DNA from: Moesziomyces globuligerus
Lineage: Eukaryota; Basidiomycota; Ustilaginomycetes; Ustilaginales; Ustilaginaceae
NCBI GenBank assembly: GCA_030849465.1
Contig: JARVLF010000024.1
Location: 1-64,000 of the forward strand
Direction: 5' to 3'
Length of the DNA: 64,000 nt
The notes under the pieces were generated by a model. The model made no database searches and was not told where the DNA came from. It saw nothing but the letters and a program-made list of their open reading frames with translations. The position numbers were made by a program, and so were the translations under genes. Shown piece after piece: positions 50,038 to 64,000 of the stretch. The first letter of the stretch is position 1. The number at the start of each line of letters is the position of its first letter.

Positions 50038-50647
50038 CCTTTTTTCACTTTTTCTCTTTCTCGCAGATCGACTGGCACGACCGAGGTCTCGCCAAACACA
50101 CACTCGTGCACACCCCAAAGACCCTGGGCTGTCGCGCACTTTTTGAAACCCCTCCCCTCGCGGCCTCAGCCGAGCAGAGACGCGGCTTTCAGCATCGCCT
50201 TGGCCGTGCTGGTAGTACAGCAAGCCAAGCTCCTGGTCCCGGGAGGTGTGTTCGAGTTTCAGAGCATGCCAATCGAGCAGGCCCACGGAGCGTGCCGAGG
50301 GTTATGGCCCCGCCCTCTCGCAGGTCTCGCTCGGCAGACAGCCAGTTGGGGCGTGCATGAGCGATTCCCACACCACCTCGTCGACGAACCCTGAGCCAGC
50401 CACTGGCGAGCTAGTCCTCCTCCTCGTACAGTCCAATTCCGAGCTCCGTACAGTCTGCTGCATGCGCTGATCTGCATCCGACTGCCTCGCACGACTTGAA
50501 CCTTGTCGCTTCTTCTCTCCTTCCATCATCACCACCTTCTGGTCCCGGCTCTCCCTTCATCCCTGACCCCATCCATACACAAGTCGCTCCCTCGAGCCTT
50601 ACATTTTTCCATACCGCTCGTGCCTCTGGCGTGCGTCACCGTCAATC
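49154..50647. promoter_or_regulatory. Intergenic region upstream of the GH26-like gene
   Basis: No gene supported. It holds a 35-base poly-T run (50003-50037) and a CT-rich leader from about 50480 to 50640. No separate exon encoding a signal peptide could be identified for the downstream gene. Confidence 0.45.
50003..50037. repeat. Poly-T(35) homopolymer
   Basis: Thirty-five consecutive T on the plus strand, followed by further T-rich sequence to about 50062. Equivalent to a poly-A tail on the minus strand. No flanking target-site duplication was recognised by eye. Confidence 0.95.
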
Positions 50648-51781
50648 ATGCCTGTCACGTCAAACCTCCAGCCTAGGGCCGTCGCCCAGCCCCTCCGCCT
50701 CAACGGCGTTCCCATTGGTTTCATCCCAGATGTCGGCTCCGACGGTGGTAACGTCCAGACCATGGTCGGCATCAATGGTCTGCTCGCCGGCCGCGGTCAG
50801 TCGTACTCCTACGGCTTTTACGACCAGACCACCTATGGCACCATCTACAACGGCCAAAAGATCCTCAACAACGCTCCAGACATTTACGCCTCCGGTGCTA
50901 TCCTCGAGGCCAGTATCATGCCCGTCGGCAACTGGGGTGGCTACACCGCCACTGACAACTCCCAGGCAAAGGCTGTCTGCAACGTCATGAAGAAGTTCAC
51001 CGACGCCGGCATCGAGGTGCGTCTGCGCTTCGCCCACGAGGTCAACTACTACGTCACCACGGGCGAGTATGCCCCCATGAACGACATGGGCGTTTCGGCC
51101 TTCAAGACCGCCTGGGCCCAGGTCTCGGCCGCCTGCAAGACCATCGCTCCCGCCGTCAAGATGTGGTACTGCCCCAATGCTGCCAACCTGCAGGTCTACG
51201 AGAGGTACATGCCGGACAACTTCAACTCCACTGTCCAAATGATCGGTGTCGACTTCTACCCGGCCTCCAACGACCTCGCTACCGCGGCCAACTACATCCA
51301 GACCGTCAAACCCTTCCATGACAAGTACTCGTCTTCATCCGTGCCCTTTGTCATTGCCGAGGCGGGTACCCACGCGCTTGATTCCACGCTTCAGGACCGT
51401 ATCGCTTGGCTCCAGACCCTCTCGTCCGCCGAAGTCAAGGCGGCCCTGCCCAACCTCGAGTCGATCACATGGTACAATGCCCTCCGCAAGACGGACATTC
51501 TTTCAAACGGCGTCGGAGGCGACTTCCGCATTCTCGACCCCGGCAATGCCACGTTCCCCAACGACATTGCTCAGCAGCTCTTCCCTGTGGTGCAATCCGC
51601 CGAGGCTTCCGCCTCGGTCGTGTCGGTCGCTACAGCGGCAACCGCAACAGCGACGGCGACGGCGCCTGCTAGCTTGCCCCCTTCGCTCAAAGGCAGCTCT
51701 GGTGCGAGCAAGAAGGGCCTGTCGGTCGCAGGCTTGGCGGTGACTGCCCTCGCTGCGATCTCGGCCCTCTCCTATCTGTGA
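50648..51781 (+). CDS. GH26-like glycoside hydrolase, predicted GPI-anchored
   Basis: A 377-residue protein from the ATG at 50648. It reads as a (beta/alpha)8 clan A hydrolase: VPIGFIPDVGSDGGNV near the N-terminus, RLRFAHEVNYYV with H130-E131-x-N133 (the GH26 acid/base pattern H-E-M-N), MIGVDFYPAS (D202, Y204), and FVIAEAGTHA with E238 as candidate nucleophile. GH26 members cleave beta-mannan or related glucans. After a Ser/Ala/Thr-rich linker the last 25 residues (SKKGLSVAGLAVTALAAISA) form a hydrophobic tail after small residues, a typical GPI-attachment signal, so a cell-wall or plasma-membrane location is expected. The N-terminus has no signal peptide, so a first exon may be missed. Family call is from catalytic motifs only; another clan A family is possible. 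Confidence 0.65.
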   Translation: MPVTSNLQPRAVAQPLRLNGVPIGFIPDVGSDGGNVQTMVGINGLLAGRGQSYSYGFYDQTTYGTIYNGQKILNNAPDIYASGAILEASIMPVGNWGGYTATDNSQAKAVCNVMKKFTDAGIEVRLRFAHEVNYYVTTGEYAPMNDMGVSAFKTAWAQVSAACKTIAPAVKMWYCPNAANLQVYERYMPDNFNSTVQMIGVDFYPASNDLATAANYIQTVKPFHDKYSSSSVPFVIAEAGTHALDSTLQDRIAWLQTLSSAEVKAALPNLESITWYNALRKTDILSNGVGGDFRILDPGNATFPNDIAQQLFPVVQSAEASASVVSVATAATATATATAPASLPPSLKGSSGASKKGLSVAGLAVTALAAISALSYL

Positions 51782-52709: not shown

Positions 52710-54569
52710 TCACCACGGCACCTTGGTCAGACCAAGCTTGGCCATCGGGTTGCCCAGGCTCGGTAGAGGCAGCAGGTAGCCCGAGTTGCGTGCCTTCTCG
52801 ACGTGCTGCGGCGACACAGTCGATAGCTGCTGCATGTCTTCCTGCCCGTAGAAGAAGATGAGCGTTGCGCGGCCCAGCAGCTCCGAGGGAATCTCGATCA
52901 GAACGCGGAAGAGCACGGCGAGCGCAAGCGTGATCACGAGCGTGAGCGCCCAGATCCCGGCCAGGTTTGTTGCAGCTCCCGAAGTCACGGACGACTCGGC
53001 GGTCATCGGGAAGACCTTGGGCATGATCGACCACAGCACGATCGCATGCATGGCCACAATCGCTGCACCGATCTGCTGCCCCATCATCGAAAGCGGCGCC
53101 AGCGAAAGCACTCGCTGAGAGACCTGCGACAGCTCCAGGAATACCAGCAGCAACGCAGAGCAAATCATGTCCGTGAACTTGATCACCGAGTAGATGTTTG
53201 CACCCTGGCGGCCACGGCTTGTGGGTCGAATGACCTGAAGGTGGGCCAGACCCTCATTGACAGGGTCGCGCACCTGCGGAACGAGCAGGAAGACCAGGAA
53301 GAGCGCCGCGCAGAGAGCCTGCACCGCCCAGCTGGCAGCCTTGTGCTTGCGCAGTCGCGTAAAGTGACCAGAGATGTCGAGCTCTGCCACCAGTAGTCCC
53401 AAAAGCGCCGGGGCCAGGTACGAAAGGGTGCACCAGTTGAGAAGGGCCATCACTAGTAGGAAGGCCACACGCGTGTCGCGCTGGAGGATGCCAACGATCA
53501 ACGTGATGCCATACATGTAGTAGCTGTTCTGGAAGAACCAAGGCAAGTAGAAGATCGGCCCAGCGGCGCTTCGCAGCTCCTGGGGGCGGTCCTCCGCCGT
53601 GAAAAGGTTGGTAGCCGTGACGATCCACTGCGAACCGTTGCGGAAGCACCAGCCGGGGCGAGTGCCGATAAGCGTCTCGAAGTTCGGGTTTTCCGGGTAG
53701 AGGTTGGTAGCTTTGCAGATGGCGTACTGCACGCCTGTGACGAAAAGGATGGGCAGCAGGAAGCGGAAGGGTCGCGAGATCATGGCCATGCCGATGAGCT
53801 TGTAGTCGGCCGAGTTGATCTCGCTCTGAGTGCTGCTCGAAGCCTTGGCGGTGAGCGCTGGTGCTGGGGTGACCTTCTCGTCGAGAGCCTTAGGAGCAGG
53901 GACCTTTGCCGCCTTTGCCGCCTTGGCCTTGGCAGCGGCATCCTTGAAGCTCTTCGCAGCATCCCGGCGGTTGATGAGCCAGGGAAGCGTGAGTGCGCGT
54001 CCTTGGATGGCAAGGAAGAGGGTGAGGGCAAAGTACGAGTTGAACGGATAGAGAATGCTCTTGCCAACAGACCACTGCTGACTAGTGGTTGCGATGACCG
54101 TCGAAGTGAGTGCAATGATGGCTGCGATGAAGCGCAGGCCGTCGATGTATCTCAGACGTCCGTACTTCATCTTCTTGATCGACTCTGGGCTCATTTGCGC
54201 GCCAGCTTGACCCATCTCAGCCTGTCCGTCCCAGGAGCTGCTGTCCCTGAGCGGGCTCTTCTTGGTCGTAGGGTCGACCTTGCCCAGCTTGCCTGAGCTG
54301 AACTCCGAGGATGCGTAGTCCGTAGGTGTGCCCGCGTTGACCAGGGTGTTGTGGGCAGAACCCCGTCGCGAATCGTCCGCAAGCGAATACGAGCTGAAGC
54401 GACCCGAAGTGTGAACGTAGCTCATCGAGCGCAGGTAGGCCATGCCGTCTTCATTGTCGGTGGTGCCGAGCGGGGTTTCGACACCGCTGGCTGCATCGTT
54501 GGGGCCGGAGGAGGGAGTTTCGGAAAGGCCCGAGCCTCTCCTCCACGTCTCTGGAAAAGGCTTAGACAT
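52710..54569 (-). CDS. Membrane acyltransferase-3 family protein
   Basis: A 619-residue integral membrane protein. I use the ATG at 54569 (MSKPFPETWRRGSG); the longer frame starts at a GTG and adds sequence with no family match. After about 135 cytosolic residues comes the acyltransferase-3 N-terminal signature RLRYIDGLRFIAAIIALTS, then YFALTLFLAIQGRALTLPWL. About ten membrane segments follow (for example PFRFLLPILFVTGVQYAICK, VAFLLVMALLNWCTLSYLAP, ALCAALFLVFLLVPQVR). An Ala/Lys-rich loop lies at about 210-240. The catalytic His expected after the first helix is not obvious (TSTVIATTS), so activity is uncertain. Family members transfer acyl groups to sugars, lipids or other small acceptors across membranes. 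The last gene of the window carries a second acyltransferase-3 domain about 6.2 kb away. Confidence 0.75.
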   Translation of the reverse strand: MSKPFPETWRRGSGLSETPSSGPNDAASGVETPLGTTDNEDGMAYLRSMSYVHTSGRFSSYSLADDSRRGSAHNTLVNAGTPTDYASSEFSSGKLGKVDPTTKKSPLRDSSSWDGQAEMGQAGAQMSPESIKKMKYGRLRYIDGLRFIAAIIALTSTVIATTSQQWSVGKSILYPFNSYFALTLFLAIQGRALTLPWLINRRDAAKSFKDAAAKAKAAKAAKVPAPKALDEKVTPAPALTAKASSSTQSEINSADYKLIGMAMISRPFRFLLPILFVTGVQYAICKATNLYPENPNFETLIGTRPGWCFRNGSQWIVTATNLFTAEDRPQELRSAAGPIFYLPWFFQNSYYMYGITLIVGILQRDTRVAFLLVMALLNWCTLSYLAPALLGLLVAELDISGHFTRLRKHKAASWAVQALCAALFLVFLLVPQVRDPVNEGLAHLQVIRPTSRGRQGANIYSVIKFTDMICSALLLVFLELSQVSQRVLSLAPLSMMGQQIGAAIVAMHAIVLWSIMPKVFPMTAESSVTSGAATNLAGIWALTLVITLALAVLFRVLIEIPSELLGRATLIFFYGQEDMQQLSTVSPQHVEKARNSGYLLPLPSLGNPMAKLGLTKVPW

Positions 54570-57500
54570 CGCAGCAATTGCGTGAGCTCTTTTGGGGATG
54601 GCGGTCTGGAGGGTAAGGATTGAAGAATGGACGTAGTGGTGAGAACGGTGGAAGAGGAGGCTAAAAGAGAAGGTGAAATGATTGGCGGGCAGAAGGAGGA
54701 ACGGATCGTTGATGGCAGGGGATGCACAAGGAAAACGAGGTCCGATGCTCGGAGGCTCAAGGGAAAGATTCGCAGACAGAGGGCTAAACCGTTCTGGAGA
54801 CCGAAAGCGACGAACGGAAGGCACCAAGATCGACGAAAATGATAGCACGACCTTGCGAGGATAGGCGACTAAGCGGCAGGGTGCGTCGCTACGGATTCAG
54901 ACGACACAAACAAGGGATGCCATGGCTGAGCTGCTTGGCTTGAAAGGGTCGAAGGGCTGCTGCCGAGTTCAAAAGGCAGCGGAACCCCGCTTTGTCACGC
55001 TAAGCCAGGAGAACAGGCGAAGCCTCGAGAGCTTCTCCCTCGATGGGCATTGCCGAGAGCGCAAGGCACAATCAGGCGGAGCACACCCATCGTCGCTCAG
55101 CCACACGCTATACAGGATCGCAGCGGTGCAGGCTGGTTGTCGAGGGTCCGAAATGGGGTCTGGTAGGGTTAGTTGCCAGGCCGAAACGAAGCGAGATGTA
55201 CGGCGTCATGACACGCTTCGGGTCATGACCACACGGCTAGGCAGGAGGTGACTGTTTCCAGGAGCGACTGTCAAAAAGTGCGTGAGAAGGAAATCGGCTT
55301 GGGCGCCGTCATCGTGTGGGTGATTTTTCTCGGCTCTCAGCGGTTCATTTTTTATTATTTTTAAAAAACTCGTTTTTGGCGGTTGTGCGGTGGCCTGCAG
55401 GAGGTGACCTCAACCGCCAATCAATTTAGTGCTTGCGGACCAAACCCTGTTTCACAACTGCTGCCATCGCCCTCTCATCCACCTAGAATGAAGAATCGCA
55501 TCCGGCTAGGATGGCCAAACCTGAAAAGGGGCACGCACAGTGCTGTTGTAGCCGTCGATCAGTCTTCTAAAGTGCTGTATTAGGCCTGTTCGGATGTTTT
55601 GCTAGACACGGTCGAGCTCGTCTCGGCACCGTGCCGTGTGAAGCACCTTATCATCTTTAGCCTCCCGGTGTTGTGGGCATCGTATCGAGGCGCTTGAAAG
55701 ACCTCAGTAGCTCACAGCCGCCGGAATGAGGTGTTGGTAAGGCCTGGGTAGGAACAGACGCCGTGCCTGCGACGAAGACAACATTCAGCCGCTGCACACG
55801 CACGAGGAAGGCAGAAGCCGACTGATTTGCGATGAAGCACATGGCGACTGGCATCACATGGACTGGCGGCGATTTTGCAGCATACACTTTCGGACTTCTC
55901 GATTCCCAGCCATGATGGAAAGGTGGGAGGACGCAGCCGGGCGCAAAGGAGGCCTTTTGGATGGGACATCTAATTTGGTGTGGTGGCGTACCGTGGCCAT
56001 GTCGGACATTCTTGACTCACGTAGGCATGTGCGTTTGCGTAACGTCAACTCATGCATCGCGCGTAGCTCGACGCAAACGCGATGTGTGCCGTGGGAGGAT
56101 GTGACGTGCAGATGGCGGGCGCGACCGCGCATTTCCGGCGCTGCCGGTCGAAGATGACGCTGTCTCTGGTAAATGTCCGTCTGAAAATGCAACGCTGACA
56201 GGCGGCACTAGACGAGTGTACTGAACCGTAGGGAAAAGGGGGGGGGGGATTTTAGAGACGAGACAGTTGCAGATCAGCTTGCTCGCTTACACTTGACTCC
56301 GCGAGGGCCGATCCTTCTGGGCAGCATCGACGATCGCATTGGCCTAGGAGCGCGAGCACTGCCAAGCCAAAGGTGAGTATGTCCACCCTCGTTTGACCAC
56401 AGCTTCAGATCCCAACGCGATTGCAGCCTTGAGGTGCCACCATTTAGTGTCGCTCAGAGCAGCCTATCAGAACGGCTCCTTCTCAGCACGACTGAGTTTG
56501 CGGTTCGAGCATGTCATCTGCTCAAATCTCGTGCTGTCGACAGAAGTTTGGTCCAAGATGCGCCAGATTTCGATCGAGGAACGGCTAATTAGGAAAGGCA
56601 TGGTTTAGGCTCCTTCACTGCGATGGCTTGATCACTGAGTGTTTGTGTGGATTAGCAATTGGTGGCGCTCCAGCTCACGATATCTCTCAGTCTCACACCA
56701 GTGCTCAAGCAACGCTGCTGCTGCCGCGGACCTCCGATCTCGAGAGGCCGGCGAGCGAAAAAGCTTCCAACCGCAGGACTGTGCGGTTGTCTGGCGCCTG
56801 GCTAAGCCCTGCATCATCGATCTCAGCGACCCCTCGCTTGGCGAACAGTGGCTATGGCTCGAGACTCGGCCGCGAAGCCGCTACTTAGCCGTGCGGGCCG
56901 ACGAGAGAGGCAAGGTCTTGTGAGGCCTGCGTGAATGAAGCCCTGATTGTCACACCCGAGCCCAGAGGCGTCTTTTCCCCGCACTGGTGGCTCGATCAAG
57001 GGGCCATGGGAAAGTTCGAAACGCCAGGGTAAGCTTGGCTAGGAACCTCGATACTATTGGCTCGCTCGTAGCCGATCTCGCTCGACGCTTCCTCTGTCCC
57101 ACGAGGCGGTTCGAACAGACAGGATTTGGTAGCCACTTTTGCGCCCGCTGGTTGACCCTTTTCGCCAGACCTTTTTCCTTTTTCTTTTTTTTGCTTGGCC
57201 CGCCGTCAGGTACGGTAAATTACAATCTTCCCTTTTTTCGCATTTGTTCATGAAAATGAAAAAGTGCCGAACAGGACTCCGATGATTTACCTCTGAAGAT
57301 TTTCGGTTTCAGTAGAGCGTCGCACTAGCTGTGCAAGCTGGCGCATGTTCCGATCAGCTGGTGCGCATTTTACGGTGCTGCACCGGCAGCGTGGTGACGA
57401 TTTGCAGCAGCGTCTGAGTTTGGAGCTGCGTGGTAGCGTGGCTTCCGCTGCGCGCCTTTCGACGCACGACGCACTCTTGCAAACAACGGAGTTTCGATCC

Positions 57501-60500
57501 ACACACAACGTCTACCCGCCCAGCCCGAATAGCTCGCATCCTGTTGCGAATGTGGGACATATGAGACTGCGAAGCGGAACGAAGACACTCACGCGCGCCT
57601 ATCCGCGGCTGGAGGTCACTCTCGGGGCTTGTCCCTCGCTGCAAGACGTGGTTCGCTCCAGTCGCCGCCAAGTTCAAGCAAGTCGCAAGGCCTCGCGCTG
57701 TGTGCTGAAGCGTTGTGATGGATGGCACCCCAAATTTCTCAAACGAACCAAACCGCCTTGGTAGTGAGCATGCATCCGATCGTCGATCGCAGTTCGAAGC
57801 GGGTCTTCGTACACAAGTTGATCATGCTGCTCGTATCACCCTGTGACGCGACCAGTAAGGCGAGGTCGCCTCTTTGGCTTCGCTGGGATCATGATGAAGC
57901 GATTTGAGCGGATACACGATAGTGCCGGAAGAACCGAGTTGGGGAACCAGAGCGGAGTGACAGGCGGCACCATGCGCCCAGCATGGGCTGTAAGGTGGCA
58001 CGAAGCCGGCTGAGCGTGGCCAGCCTGGGCGCACGCCTGCGCACGCGACCAAGATTGCGGCGAACAAGGGTTCAAGCCCCGATCGATTTTCAACGGCGAC
58101 CTGACCGGAGTCGGAGGCGTTTTTAACGCTTTGTGAAAATGCCCGTTGTATCCGAGCCGATCTGCTGCTGCGTGTGCATGACCTCATCGTTCCTTGCAGC
58201 CGCAGGCGCTCGACGAGATGCACCTCACCCCCCACATACAGTATTGTACTGCGGTACAGCACTTTTCGCGTTGCCGCCCGTTCCGCGTTCCCACACTTTG
58301 CAATTTGCGGGCGTTGTTCAGACGACCGGATCACCCGACGTCCTGTCACCACCGCTGATCCGATCGGCCACGACGGCGCATCATTTTGGCCCGCCCTGCC
58401 TGCGATCGTCTGGAAGCGCGGCCATAGTGATCGCCAGCTCGCTTCGTCGCCGCCCGCTGACCATGCCATCATGACAATGTCGGACTTTCCTCCCATCGGA
58501 ACTCACGCGAACAGCCACCGCGAATCTCACAGCACCATCATGCATGTTCCTTTACCCCACTTCGGATCTGAGGCACCTTGCGCGGTAGCACGAGCTCGCC
58601 AGCATCGTGTTTAGAAGCGCTGGCATGGCCTTGCATCTCCGTGAGGGGGCTTACCAGGTGGTCTTGCACTTGTCACGCAGCGCGATTATTGGTGGGTCAA
58701 TGAATCCATTGTATAGTTCATGGCGGTCGCCCTCGCGATCCTGCAGCGGTTTCCAACGGCATGATCGAAGCCTAGTGGCGCCCAACTTGCTGCGCGTCTC
58801 GGCATGCAGGAATCTCGAACGACCAAACACTCCTGTACCGGTAGAAGAAAATAAATTGTTTTGAAAGGTGATTTTGGAGAATTAAGCCGACGCCAAAACA
58901 ATGGAGGCTCCATGGAAATGGCAAAGAATGACATGCGGCTTGCTCTCCTATCCAGCCTCGCTACTCCGCGTCCATCAAGCACGCATGCTCTCGGCAGCGT
59001 TCCTGCGCAACGCCCTGCGTCGAGCTCAAGCGGTGCAGCCGGCACGGAAGCCTGCCGAGGGTGCACCGAATGTTCAGAGCTCCTCACAAATCTCACAGCC
59101 TGGATGGGGACGAGGGAGGAACGCAAGAGATAGAAAGACGAGATAGCATGTACGTTGCGCTTTTTGCCCTCCATTGTCTCAATGCCGTGTCTGAAAGGAG
59201 GCTCGCAACGTTCCTCGTATCTTCGCAATCAGTCAGACCGTGTGGCTTGTTTTTGTTCCTTCCAGACCAGGAGCTCCGAGATCAATGTTTAACAGGCAGC
59301 AGCGGGCTATGTCTGCAAAGTTGCGCTTCCATTGCTTCATACAACGAGCGCAGCATTGTTTGCGATGCAGGGGCTTGAGCACCTCACGATCGCTCAATCC
59401 CTCGGCAGTCACTGATCTTTGTCCACTCTCGCTAAATGTAGGGCTGTTCGTTTGCTATTTTCGTCGTCTCTGTGACAAAAGCTCCCACAGACCGACCAGG
59501 CCGTACTACATTGTACAGCGAGAGAAGATGGCGTTCTTATTGTTCGGTCGATCCAGACCCGCCAAGTGTGGTCAGCGACGTCTCCTGGAGAGCGAGAGCC
59601 AAAGTGTACGCGAAACATAGCGCGACGGAAAACTAAACTTGTTTTTTCACCTTTTTTCACCGCTAAGCGAATTAGCGGAGCACCGTGGCTGCGCCCATGA
59701 AACCGCTTGTTTGAAGCTGCGGAATTCATCCTGCCTCGGCCATCGGCGGCTGCTTGTGGGTCATGCAAAGCCTAGATGCGGCACCACGCCCTGCCCTTCC
59801 GCAACCCCCATAGCCAACGGACTTGCGCGTCTACATCCACCGAACCTCTCGCTTGCGGTCGTTGCGAGCCTTGAACCCTCGATTCCTGAGCGTCTGACCC
59901 TGATTTACGGCAAACCAACTTGGACACCTGCTGCTACGAAGCGAATGCCCTTTCACATCCAGCTCCGATGGTGCACTCCATCACTCGTTCGTATTGGTGT
60001 TGTTGACCCTCAGGGTCCGCTAGCCGCTGTCGGTCCGTGGGACCTGCCTTGTGGGCACTGGCTCTTCCGGCCACACTCTCTAGCCATCAGGGCCGATCCC
60101 GCGGCACTTGAATCCTTCCTCGCTTGACCAGAGAGCTCTGATGTACGAGACCTGACCAGACATCGCCGCTTCCCATCGTTGCCCGCAACACAGCCGTTGG
60201 CTTGTTATCCCTGACAAGCCAAGCTTCCGCCAGCCTTGTTTGCACGCTGCCCGTGTAGATCGGATCACCTGTCCGTGCTCCTCAAGCCAAAACTTTTCCC
60301 GTCCCTGCCTACGATTCCTTGCCGCTCCGTCCTTCGGCTTGATGTGCCATGCGTGCACCAAACAAGCGCTGAGCACCCGAGCAGACATCTGAGAAGCTAA
60401 GCCGCCGTGCACATGCCAAAGAAACTTTCCCATACCCTCTCTGTCTCGCAACTCTCTTCGGACGACCCCATCGTTTGAGTGACCAAGTACCATCTCTGAA

Positions 60501-60782
60501 TCCTGAATCGGACCCTCCCCTCTCGCTCCTCCGCGACAGATTCCCTCGAGCCTCTGCCATTCCTTTCGCTAGCCTCTCCTTGCACTCCTTCTTTCCACAT
60601 CCCCTCCAATTCCACCTCAACGACAAAGCCTTCGCAAGAACGGAAGCGCACCACCCTTAGCCTTCCCGCATCCATCGTATCACTCGCGCTCAAGCCGGCT
60701 TCTCTCGTCCAGTCCGAGGCCGACAACGCAACTTGATCTGGAGCGTGCAGCTCGACGACAGAGCTCAAAGGCTTTCGCAATC
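54570..60782. other. 6.2 kb region without supportable gene
   Basis: Longest gap in the window. Many short overlapping frames on both strands, none longer than about 225 codons and none with a recognised domain. It includes an AT-rich patch (about 55345-55380, TTTTTATTATTTTTAAAAAA), a G11 run (56238-56248), a T-rich patch near 57170-57190 and a CT-rich leader from about 60470 to 60780. It may hold long promoters, non-coding RNA, small spliced genes or decayed element DNA. I see no tRNA or 5S gene in it. Confidence 0.4.
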
Positions 60783-63700
60783 ATGTCGTCGCCCGTCAGA
60801 AACGAGAGGCGCAAGAGCGACAACTCGAGCGACCGCCCTCACTCGTCTTCAAGCGAAAACGACGATCAGATTCACCCAGCAGGTCCTCTGCCATATCACA
60901 ACTATGGCGGTTACGAATCCCGTAAGTGTCCCAGATCCGATCATGCAGGAGTCTCGCCTGCTGGGCTGCAGGCAGTGCGAGAGTTGCAATGCCTGGCTCG
61001 TATGGCATGAATGTGCGTATACTGACACGCTTCGATCCTGGCGTTCTGATGCTCTTTTCTTCGCTGGACAGGCTCGAGTACACTCACGCCGAGTACACTC
61101 GGACCCAACGAGCGCGCTTCCCTGGTGTACACTCCCGGCAACGAGACTCCCATCGGTTGGGATCGCAGCGCAACCGCAACTCCGAGTCACGATGAGAAGG
61201 GGGCGAGTATCTCGGAGTTCAAGGCGGCAAAGGACTCGGCCGGCGCCGTAGGTAGCGGCATGGTCAAGGAAGAGAAGAAGCCTCGCGCCGATCAACCCGC
61301 CAAGACCGCCGCAAACGGATACCTTGACTACGCCGATGGTCTCCGTGGTATTGCCATGATCATGGTGTTCAACGGCCACTTTATCGACAACACCTTCGTG
61401 CAAACACACCCGGGCACCATTCAGAACGGTACGCCCGTCGGTATTCTCAGGAGCCCGATCGGTCTGGTTCTCTTCTACATGCTTTCCGGTCGCCTCAACG
61501 CCACATCGTATTTCCGCAACAAGTCGCTCGGTCGTCCGATCAGGTGGAGCGTTCTTCCCGAAGCCATGGTGCGCCGTGCCATCCGTCTTTTGATTGTCGG
61601 TGCCGTCTGGATCGTCATTCAGAAGGTCGAGTGCGGCTCGCATGCCTTTGACCAGACAGTTATCGCCGAAGGTTGGCTCCAGAGTGGCAACTTAGGCTAC
61701 CCGCTGTGGTGCAACGTCGACTTCAACAACCCATCGCCTTACGCATCGGACTGGAAGATCTCCACGAGCGTCGGTGACATCGTTGTGGGTCTGCTGCGCA
61801 TGGCAACCAACCGCGACTACCTGCAGCAGCTGCTCAACACGTCGATGCTCTGGTCGATCGTGCCCCAGCTCTGGGGCATGCTCTCGGTGCTCATGCTCCT
61901 GCCCATCGTCATGTTCCTGCGACCCTCGCGACGTTTCGTGCTGTACGCTCTGCTGCTCACCTTCCAGGGCTACACGTACAACCAGAACATCCCCTTCACT
62001 GTCGGTGCCGTCGCTGCCGATCTCAAAGCCTCGGGATACATCAAGAAATTCAACCAAAAGTCACGCATCGCTTTCCTCTGCACAGAGGTGGCCATGGCTG
62101 CTTTCTTCATCGGAGCTTTCTGCTACAACCCGATCGCCGTCGGCATCGACCGCGGTCTCGAGAAGATCACGGACCGCGATGGCGTTCTCGGTTACGACAT
62201 CACTCTCTTCACTGCAGGTCGCATGCCAAGCTACCTCATCCTGGCTGGCGTGCTCTACTTCTGGCTCGAGATGAGCGTGGTTCTCCAATGGCTGATCGGC
62301 AACTGGGCATTCAAGGCGCTCGGCCGTGTTGCGCTCGGCTTCTACGTGTGCCAGATGTCGCTCATCTATGGTATCATGCCGCATCTGGTCATCTACTTCC
62401 GTGACCGTGGCTACAGCTTCTGGAGCAACATGTGGGCAACCTGGGCTATCACCTTCTTCTCTGCCTATCTGGTTGCCTGGGCTATCACGCACACGCTCGA
62501 TCAGTGGGCCATGCTCTTCGCCGACTGGTTTGCAAGCACTATTGTGCGCAACGATACGGTCACGACGCTGCGCATGGGAGCCGTCAACACCCTCCGCGCC
62601 GTCGTGTACGGTCCCCCTGCGATTGCGCGTGCCACCCCCGCGTGGTGCCGCGAAAGGTGGGCGAAGACCAAGCACTTCACCTGGGTCCTATTCCACTGGC
62701 GCACCATGGTCGAGGCGCCAGCGCCGCCTTCGCATCCGATGGAGGTTGGGCTGCAGATGAACCAGCTTCACTCGACCCTCTTTGACGCAGACATCTCGGA
62801 CGACGAGCAGGCAGTGCGTACGCGATGGATGCTCCGGGCTCTCTCTTTCCTCGGACCTGTCCAGGTACTCATCATCCTCGGCCTCGGCTTCATCTGGATG
62901 TGGTTCAACCCATGGGCCGACTACATTCTGGATGGCTTCGCGAACTTCTCCACGGTGTGGCGTCTGCTCTGGGCGCTCGCCTTGCCCTACTGCATCATCA
63001 CGACGCTCGGATTCGCCACGCCGGATATCACACGAACCACCGAGGAGCTCAAGAAGAAGCCCGTGGTTCGCGAGCACATTCACCGTCTGTTCATCGTCTC
63101 GGTGACCCGAGGTTCGAACCCCGAGACCACGCGACGTGCGCATCTGCACCTCAAGAAGCTCGAGAAGTACCACCCCGCTGTTCGTGCGATCGTGCTGACG
63201 GACGAGCCTTACTACTATCCGGACCTGGACAACGTCATGACGCCCAAGTCGTACCAGTCACCTCTGGGCAAGGCCAAGCACAAGGCCAAGGCGCTCGACT
63301 ACTTCCGCTCGTCGATGGGTCTGACGCCGTACGACTGGATTCTGCACATGGACGAAGAGTCGACCATGGATGCAGAGTCGCTGCGCGGCTGCTTCGACTT
63401 CATCAGGTACAACACGGCACACATCGGACAGGGCATCATCATCTACAACGGCAAGCGCGAGACCTACTGGAAGAACTGGTTCTTCGCCGTGGCCGATTGC
63501 ATTCGTGTCGGTGACGAGCTGGCGCGCTTCTCGCTGCAGGGCAACATCATCAAGCGTCCCGTGTTCGGTGTGCACGGCTCGTTCCTCATGATCAACGGCG
63601 ATGTAGAAAACAAGGTCACCTGGGACTTTGGCTCCCTCGCGGAGGACTTCGAATTCTCGCAGGCGGCGTGGTCCAAGGGCTTCACGCTGGGCCGCATCCA

Positions 63701-64000
63701 CGGTGTGGTTCGCGAACAATCGCCAGAGGGCTGGATGGACTTTATCAAGCAGCGTCGTCGATGGTACATGGGCATTCGCGGCATTGACGGTCTCTTCTTC
63801 CTGCCACAGATCGCGATCAAGCTCTGGACCGCGGGCATCTTCTGTCTGGTGGCCACGCTCATCAACATTCCGTTTTCGCTGCTGCTCGAGTGGTCGGGTC
63901 AGACGCCGAGGTGGCTTTACGTTATCTCGTGCTTCTGTTTCGGCAACTTCTACTGGCTTTACTACTCTGGACTCTTCTTCTCCGAGCTCGATTACGGCTA
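60783..64000 (+). CDS. Acyltransferase-3 / family-2 glycosyltransferase fusion, partial
   Basis: Spliced gene, open at the window edge (about 1022 codons seen). Exon 1 (60783-60921, MSSPVRNERRKSDN) ends in phase 1; exon 2 starts at 61072 and stays open to 64000. The N-terminal membrane half (about residues 130-545) opens with YLDYADGLRGIAMIMVFNGH, the acyltransferase-3 start with its catalytic-type His, then LFYMLSGRLNATSYFRNKS and about ten helices. After two more helices, the half from about residue 700 is a processive-type family-2 glycosyltransferase resembling egghead/BRE-3 beta-1,4-mannosyltransferase: FIVSVTRGSNPETTRRAHLH, HMDEEST (D-E-E at 63351-63359), GQGIIIYN, GVHGSFLMINGDVENKVTWD, LAEDFEF (acidic E-D), and IKQRRRWYMGI (Q-R-R-R-W at 63750-63764), then more helices. 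Probably Golgi or plasma-membrane. Substrate unknown; a glycolipid or cell-wall glycan is plausible. The 3' end is missing. Confidence 0.85.
60922..61071 (+). other. Spliceosomal intron in the fusion gene
   Basis: 150 bases, GTAAGT at the 5' end, TACTGAC branch-point-like sequence near 61018-61024, and CTGGACAG at the 3' end. Removal joins exon 1 (phase 1) to an exon that stays open for 2.9 kb; reading through gives an early stop near 61008-61010. One of few introns needed in this window. Confidence 0.85.

Follow-up and report, generated by a model that had tools for sequence, protein, structure and literature searches.

We analysed the first 64,000 bases (the window) of C24, a 330-kb contig in the 18.5-Mb, 24-contig genome of the smut fungus Moesziomyces globuligerus, and found that a gene reaching past its far end encodes an acyltransferase-3 (AT3) domain and a family-2 glycosyltransferase (GT2) in one polypeptide, an architecture that sequence, domain matches, homology and predicted folds all support. 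The gene lies on the plus strand. Exon 1 (60783..60921) opens with an ATG at 60783 and supplies 46 codons plus one base of a low-complexity N terminus; the intron (60922..61071) runs from a GTAAGT donor at 60922 to a CAG acceptor whose last base is 61071; and exon 2 (61072..64148, with 61072..64000 inside the window) joins exon 1 in frame and carries both domains. An earlier interpretation made from the letters alone (the sequence-only reading) had placed the two domains in one continuous exon and had named an internal intron or stop near 62.7-63.0 kb as what would speak against this. No stop or frame break was found there, and the frame was open from 61050 to 64148, 1,032 residues without any stop. 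Past position 64000, where that reading ended, the frame stayed intact and the gene was completed 148 bases beyond the window by a TAA stop (64146-64148), giving a predicted protein of 1,071 residues (47 + 1,024).

A Pfam run on the in-window portion of the frame (983 residues, numbered from 61050) returned both of the anticipated domains well over their cut-offs. PF01757 (Acyl_transf_3) matched at 61326..62489 (plus strand, residues 93-480, E value = 5e-28, 98.5 bits versus a cut-off of 31), and PF13632 (Glyco_trans_2_3), the GT2 core, matched at 63336..63956 (plus strand, residues 763-969, E value = 7e-34, 117.8 bits versus a cut-off of 27). Every motif that had been named was located as well: the DYADGLRGIA start of the AT3 domain, with its Arg at 61344-61346 and its His at 61377-61379 (together 61344..61379), and the GT2 motifs DEE (63351-63359), ED (63642-63647) and QRRRW (63750-63764), all on the plus strand. 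The closest named relative, Ustilago bromivora P0002, was 88% identical across 99% of the query, the linker included.

The 56 relatives found at an E value of ≤0.001 comprised 44 with AT3 and GT2, 11 with GT2 without AT3 and 1 with AT3 only. Proteins with both domains came from three phyla, Basidiomycota, Chytridiomycota and Blastocladiomycota, and included Ustilago, Violaceomyces, Pseudozyma and Thecaphora; Puccinia, Melampsora, Phakopsora, Microbotryum, Rhodotorula, Mixia, Cystobasidium and Atractiella, and also Calocera; and the chytrids Fimicolochytrium, Geranomyces, Powellomyces, Thoreauomyces and Blyttiomyces, plus Paraphysoderma (lineage was checked for five species and is presumed for the remainder). 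What had been read as an enzyme of a smut thus does occur in smuts but is not peculiar to them. No ascomycete name appeared among the 56 matches, which is weak evidence, as the search depends on shared 5-residue words. Several relatives without an AT3 call were gene models beginning within the AT3 half or the linker, and two of the 11, P0056 and P0057, were only distantly similar and combined GT2 with a different second domain (PF22612; PF00501). Used alone against 5.8 billion proteins, the AT3 half gave no match at an E value of ≤0.001 among the 7,999 candidates scored; the GT2 half alone gave 18 matches. The sequence-only reading knew of no described system of this form, and we found none among the papers seen in searches of the open-licence literature, outside which most subscription journals lie. 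The AT3-GT2 architecture is real and widespread, and it appears to be old and, within the literature searched, undescribed.

We then compared the histories of the two halves. The alignment A2 held 57 rows, namely 50 of the 56 relatives (without P0050 and P0053-P0057) and 7 of the 18 GT2-half matches; the trees of the halves were built from the 46 rows with >150 residues of each half. Distances in the AT3-half tree and the GT2-half tree were closely correlated across these 46 proteins (Spearman, 0.95), and 27 of 43 bipartitions were held in common. A further tree of the GT2 domain contained 28 rows, with two bacterial outgroups and 9 of the 18 GT2-half matches (P0061-P0066 and P0071 were left out, and the matches P0047 and P0052 entered A2 only). 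In that tree, 22 rows, consisting of fused proteins and fragments thereof, formed a single clade (100/99), and the single-domain proteins P0067-P0070 formed a separate clade outside it. Nested among the fused proteins were the GT2-only proteins P0058 and P0059 together with P0049, P0051 and P0060. P0059, from Rhizoclosmatium, has GT2 alone yet opens with the linker motif seen in fused proteins and is therefore read as a loss or a truncated gene model. The broad agreement between the trees of the halves suggests an old fusion that has been passed down as a single unit.

The residues expected of working enzymes were largely kept in both halves. Among the A2 rows covering each motif, DEE was present in 57 of 57, ED in 56 of 56 and QRRRW in 55 of 56, the exception being QRKRW in P0046 (P0047 ends upstream of the motif). 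The GT2 profile and these motifs fit egghead and BRE-3, beta-1,4-mannosyltransferases of the GT2 family in animals, but they are common to GT2 enzymes at large. The predicted model of the GT2 half had the fold of PcManGT from Pyrobaculum and of cellulose and hyaluronan synthases, at about 9 to 14% identity in the alignments. By sequence, searches of solved structures returned only a haemoglobin and one methyltransferase (E values of 0.33 to 0.87), which we judged to be chance matches, and the GT2 alignment as query returned none. For the AT3 half, the model of the relative P0002 had an HGSNAT-like fold of the transmembrane acyltransferase (TmAT) type. The conserved Arg and His of the AT3 half are separated by 11 residues in numbering (R137 and H148 in P0002, with equal spacing in the window protein), and the His was retained in 38 of the 40 A2 rows covering the column, with Arg and His occurring together across chytrids and basidiomycetes. 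OafB has R14 and H25, with the same spacing of 11 (PMC9833829).

Divergent to the fusion gene lies a second AT3-like gene, which we call AT3-psi (52710..54569, minus strand, 619 residues). It showed AT3 homology and an AT3 fold, as a diverged paralogue, and has Thr at the position of the catalytic His; judged from this residue it looks catalytically dead. Against Pfam it matched nothing up to an E value of 10. In Paraphysoderma P0015, an AT3-psi-type domain is fused N-terminally to the AT3-GT2 enzyme, with Ser in place of the catalytic His. Proteins that are fused in one lineage and encoded by divergent neighbours in another are usually partners. Given this fused counterpart and the divergent adjacency here, AT3-psi is a probable partner subunit of the fusion enzyme, presumably in physical association with it. 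The start codons of the two genes stand 6.2 kb apart, and this stretch (54570..60782) held no convincing gene by eye among 15 ATG frames of ≥80 residues, inspected without a Pfam run. Two duplication scenarios, each of which faces a long-branch problem, were rejected in approximately unbiased (AU) tests: that the N-terminal domain of P0015 arose by recent local duplication (AU P value = 0.012), and that AT3-psi is a copy of the fusion's own AT3 made within the smut lineage (AU P value = 0.008).

We propose, at about even chances, that the fusion protein is an integral-membrane enzyme with two activities that assembles a glycolipid or surface glycan, with AT3-psi as its probable partner. The C-terminal GT2, whose active site would face the cytosol, would attach a sugar to an acceptor held in the membrane; mannose, taken from a nucleotide donor, is the likeliest sugar. 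The acyl group, for which acetyl is the likeliest candidate, would come from acyl-CoA in the cytosol; the N-terminal AT3 would pass it across the membrane and esterify the GT2 product with it on the lumenal or outer face. Fusion would keep sugar addition and acylation coupled, and the His-less AT3-psi would assist as a partner subunit. In this scheme the topology, the donor and the acceptor, the acyl group and the physical association are our inferences. The sequence-only reading had synthesis and acylation take place in one step, which is unlikely as worded because the GT2 site is expected to be cytosolic and acyl delivery by AT3 to occur on the opposite side of the membrane; two coupled steps would be expected instead. 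The label "egghead-like" used in that reading would reflect family membership in GT2 and the source names of some relatives, since some fused proteins are already labelled in databases "related to beta 1,4-mannosyltransferase (egghead protein)." More tentatively, and with somewhat less than an even chance of being right, we suggest the fuller picture of a heteromer of a catalytic AT3-GT2 protein and a dedicated His-less AT3 pseudoenzyme making an acylated mannosyl glycolipid or glycan, with sugar addition coupled to trans-membrane acylation. Such a system, absent from the literature searched and with its pseudoenzyme fused in one lineage, would be at least as old as the split between Blastocladiomycota and Dikarya if it was inherited vertically.

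Several observations weigh against this proposal or parts of it. The trees of the halves are not identical, and Paraphysoderma P0015 switches between them, its AT3 half grouping with the smuts and its GT2 half falling on the side of the chytrids. The link to AT3-psi comes from this single fused protein, and both branches are long. In the reverse search AT3-psi ranked fifth among non-self matches (108 bits versus 121 for the best), and Foldseek alone with the AT3-psi model gave no match at an E value of ≤0.001, with HGSNAT at an E value of 1.6. The support from a glucosylceramide-synthase-like GT21 frame on contig C22 comes from two Pfam fragments of one open frame together with reading of it. 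Processive polysaccharide synthases, moreover, have the GT2 fold too, and the product may be a polymer. On that account the GT2 half would be a processive synthase extruding a surface polysaccharide (e.g., a beta-mannan or a mixed glucan) that AT3 O-acetylates outside. The GT2 half does combine a QxxRW motif with a synthase fold; PcManGT is an equally good match. We regard a processive synthase as the less likely account.

The AT3 half might instead no longer transfer acyl groups and act in the membrane as a scaffold, channel or regulator of GT2. The catalytic His is replaced by Asn in P0004 and by Ala in P0048 with the GT2 motifs intact, which means that some lineages may manage without AT3 catalysis; the evolutionary rate of the AT3 half is roughly double that of the GT2 half (median ratio, 2.0); and AT3-psi lacks the His in both lineages where it was seen. 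Against this stands the joint retention of Arg and His in 38 of the 40 covering rows, from chytrids as well as basidiomycetes and with the window protein among them, and we consider a noncatalytic AT3 half improbable. That two adjoining genes had been misread as one is far less credible still, and we rejected this explanation on the unbroken frame and on the recurrence of both domains in 44 of the 56 relatives, from several sources. P0039, moreover, has both domains in a protein of 1,233 residues on a contig of 3,978 bases, which suggests a transcript.

Viral contigs held no relative, and bacteria and archaea together held three loci, two of them full-length and the third, in a Lentisphaeria metagenome-assembled genome (MAG), partial. 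The full-length proteins, single-domain GT2 relatives, are encoded in a Myxococcales MAG (L022, 4884-6206) and a Xenococcaceae MAG (L023, 4809-6119) and are 34 to 37% identical. No AT3 neighbour was seen by eye at either locus, where the adjoining frames were inspected without a family search; the surroundings of the Myxococcales gene held methyltransferase-, ABC-transporter- and glycosyltransferase-like frames by eye. Among 292 genomes of the phylum of the Xenococcaceae MAG, 8 gave a match, full-length (a 437-residue frame) only in that MAG, with 61 to 118 positions aligned in the other seven.

Elsewhere in the M. globuligerus genome, PF01757 matched at 4 places and PF13632 at 14, 12 of them over the cut-off. 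At two of these regions, C2 158038-165191 (L016, L017) and C6 292075-300776 (L018, L019), a GT2 gene lies divergent to an AT3 gene. The two regions are paralogous (hhalign E value = 6e-127) and thus count as one independent case. Their GT2 genes are PgaC/CelA-like, under the cut-offs of those models, and their AT3 protein has about 1,270 residues with an extracellular-looking N-terminal part. The C2 AT3 gene has a GH16 match over the cut-off; for C6 no GH16 match was reported within the stretch tested. Within the window, a plus-strand gene at 50567-51781 encodes a GH-A-clan-like protein (weak PF00150 match, E value = 1.4e-4, below the cut-off) with a hydrophobic C terminus resembling a glycosylphosphatidylinositol signal and an HEVN stretch that we take to be reminiscent of GH26 mannanases. 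Just beyond the window, on the minus strand, a single open frame of 1,752 residues (C24 65645-70903; L003 2146-7404) has about 1,200 residues without a Pfam match followed by a kynurenine 3-monooxygenase (E value = 1.9e-84), a possible fusion, and farther downstream of the AT3-GT2 gene lies a glycoside hydrolase of family 45 (C24 ~72307-73398, minus strand; L003 8808-9899; E value = 1.6e-98). The window held no Rfam family and no tRNA.

If the proposal is right, it would identify the enzyme behind an acylated glycoconjugate that is conserved from chytrids through to rusts and smuts and is absent from the literature found, and it would supply a gene pair that could be deleted to find that glycoconjugate. 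The protein would also be a natural case of glycan synthesis and trans-membrane acylation tied within one chain. AT3-psi would offer a case of an AT3 pseudoenzyme, of which we know of no studied example.

The architecture differs from each of the systems it resembles. The AT3-SGNH fusions OafA, OafB and OatA share PF01757, the Arg-His spacing of 11 and the TmAT-type fold, but their partner is an extracytoplasmic SGNH domain, whereas here it is a glycosyltransferase predicted to be cytosolic. VanT (AT3-racemase) and animal NRF-AT3 proteins likewise join AT3 to another domain (PMC9558356, PMC12423673), but the partner domain differs, and AT3-GT2 is widespread in fungi; AT3 fusions to other domains are stated for Eukarya, without detail (PMC9833829). 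PcManGT and the cellulose and hyaluronan synthases share the fold of the GT2 half at low identity, and their entries lack an AT3 fusion. ZtGT2/Cps1 are also fungal membrane GT2 enzymes; a ZtGT2-like protein is reported absent from U. maydis and P. graminis (PMC5653360), whereas AT3-GT2 relatives are present in Ustilago bromivora and Puccinia graminis. Egghead is an animal GT2 beta-1,4-mannosyltransferase of mannosyl-glucosylceramide synthesis (PMC6202054); the likeness of the present GT2 half to egghead/BRE-3 is one of name and family, and here the glycosyltransferase is fused to AT3.
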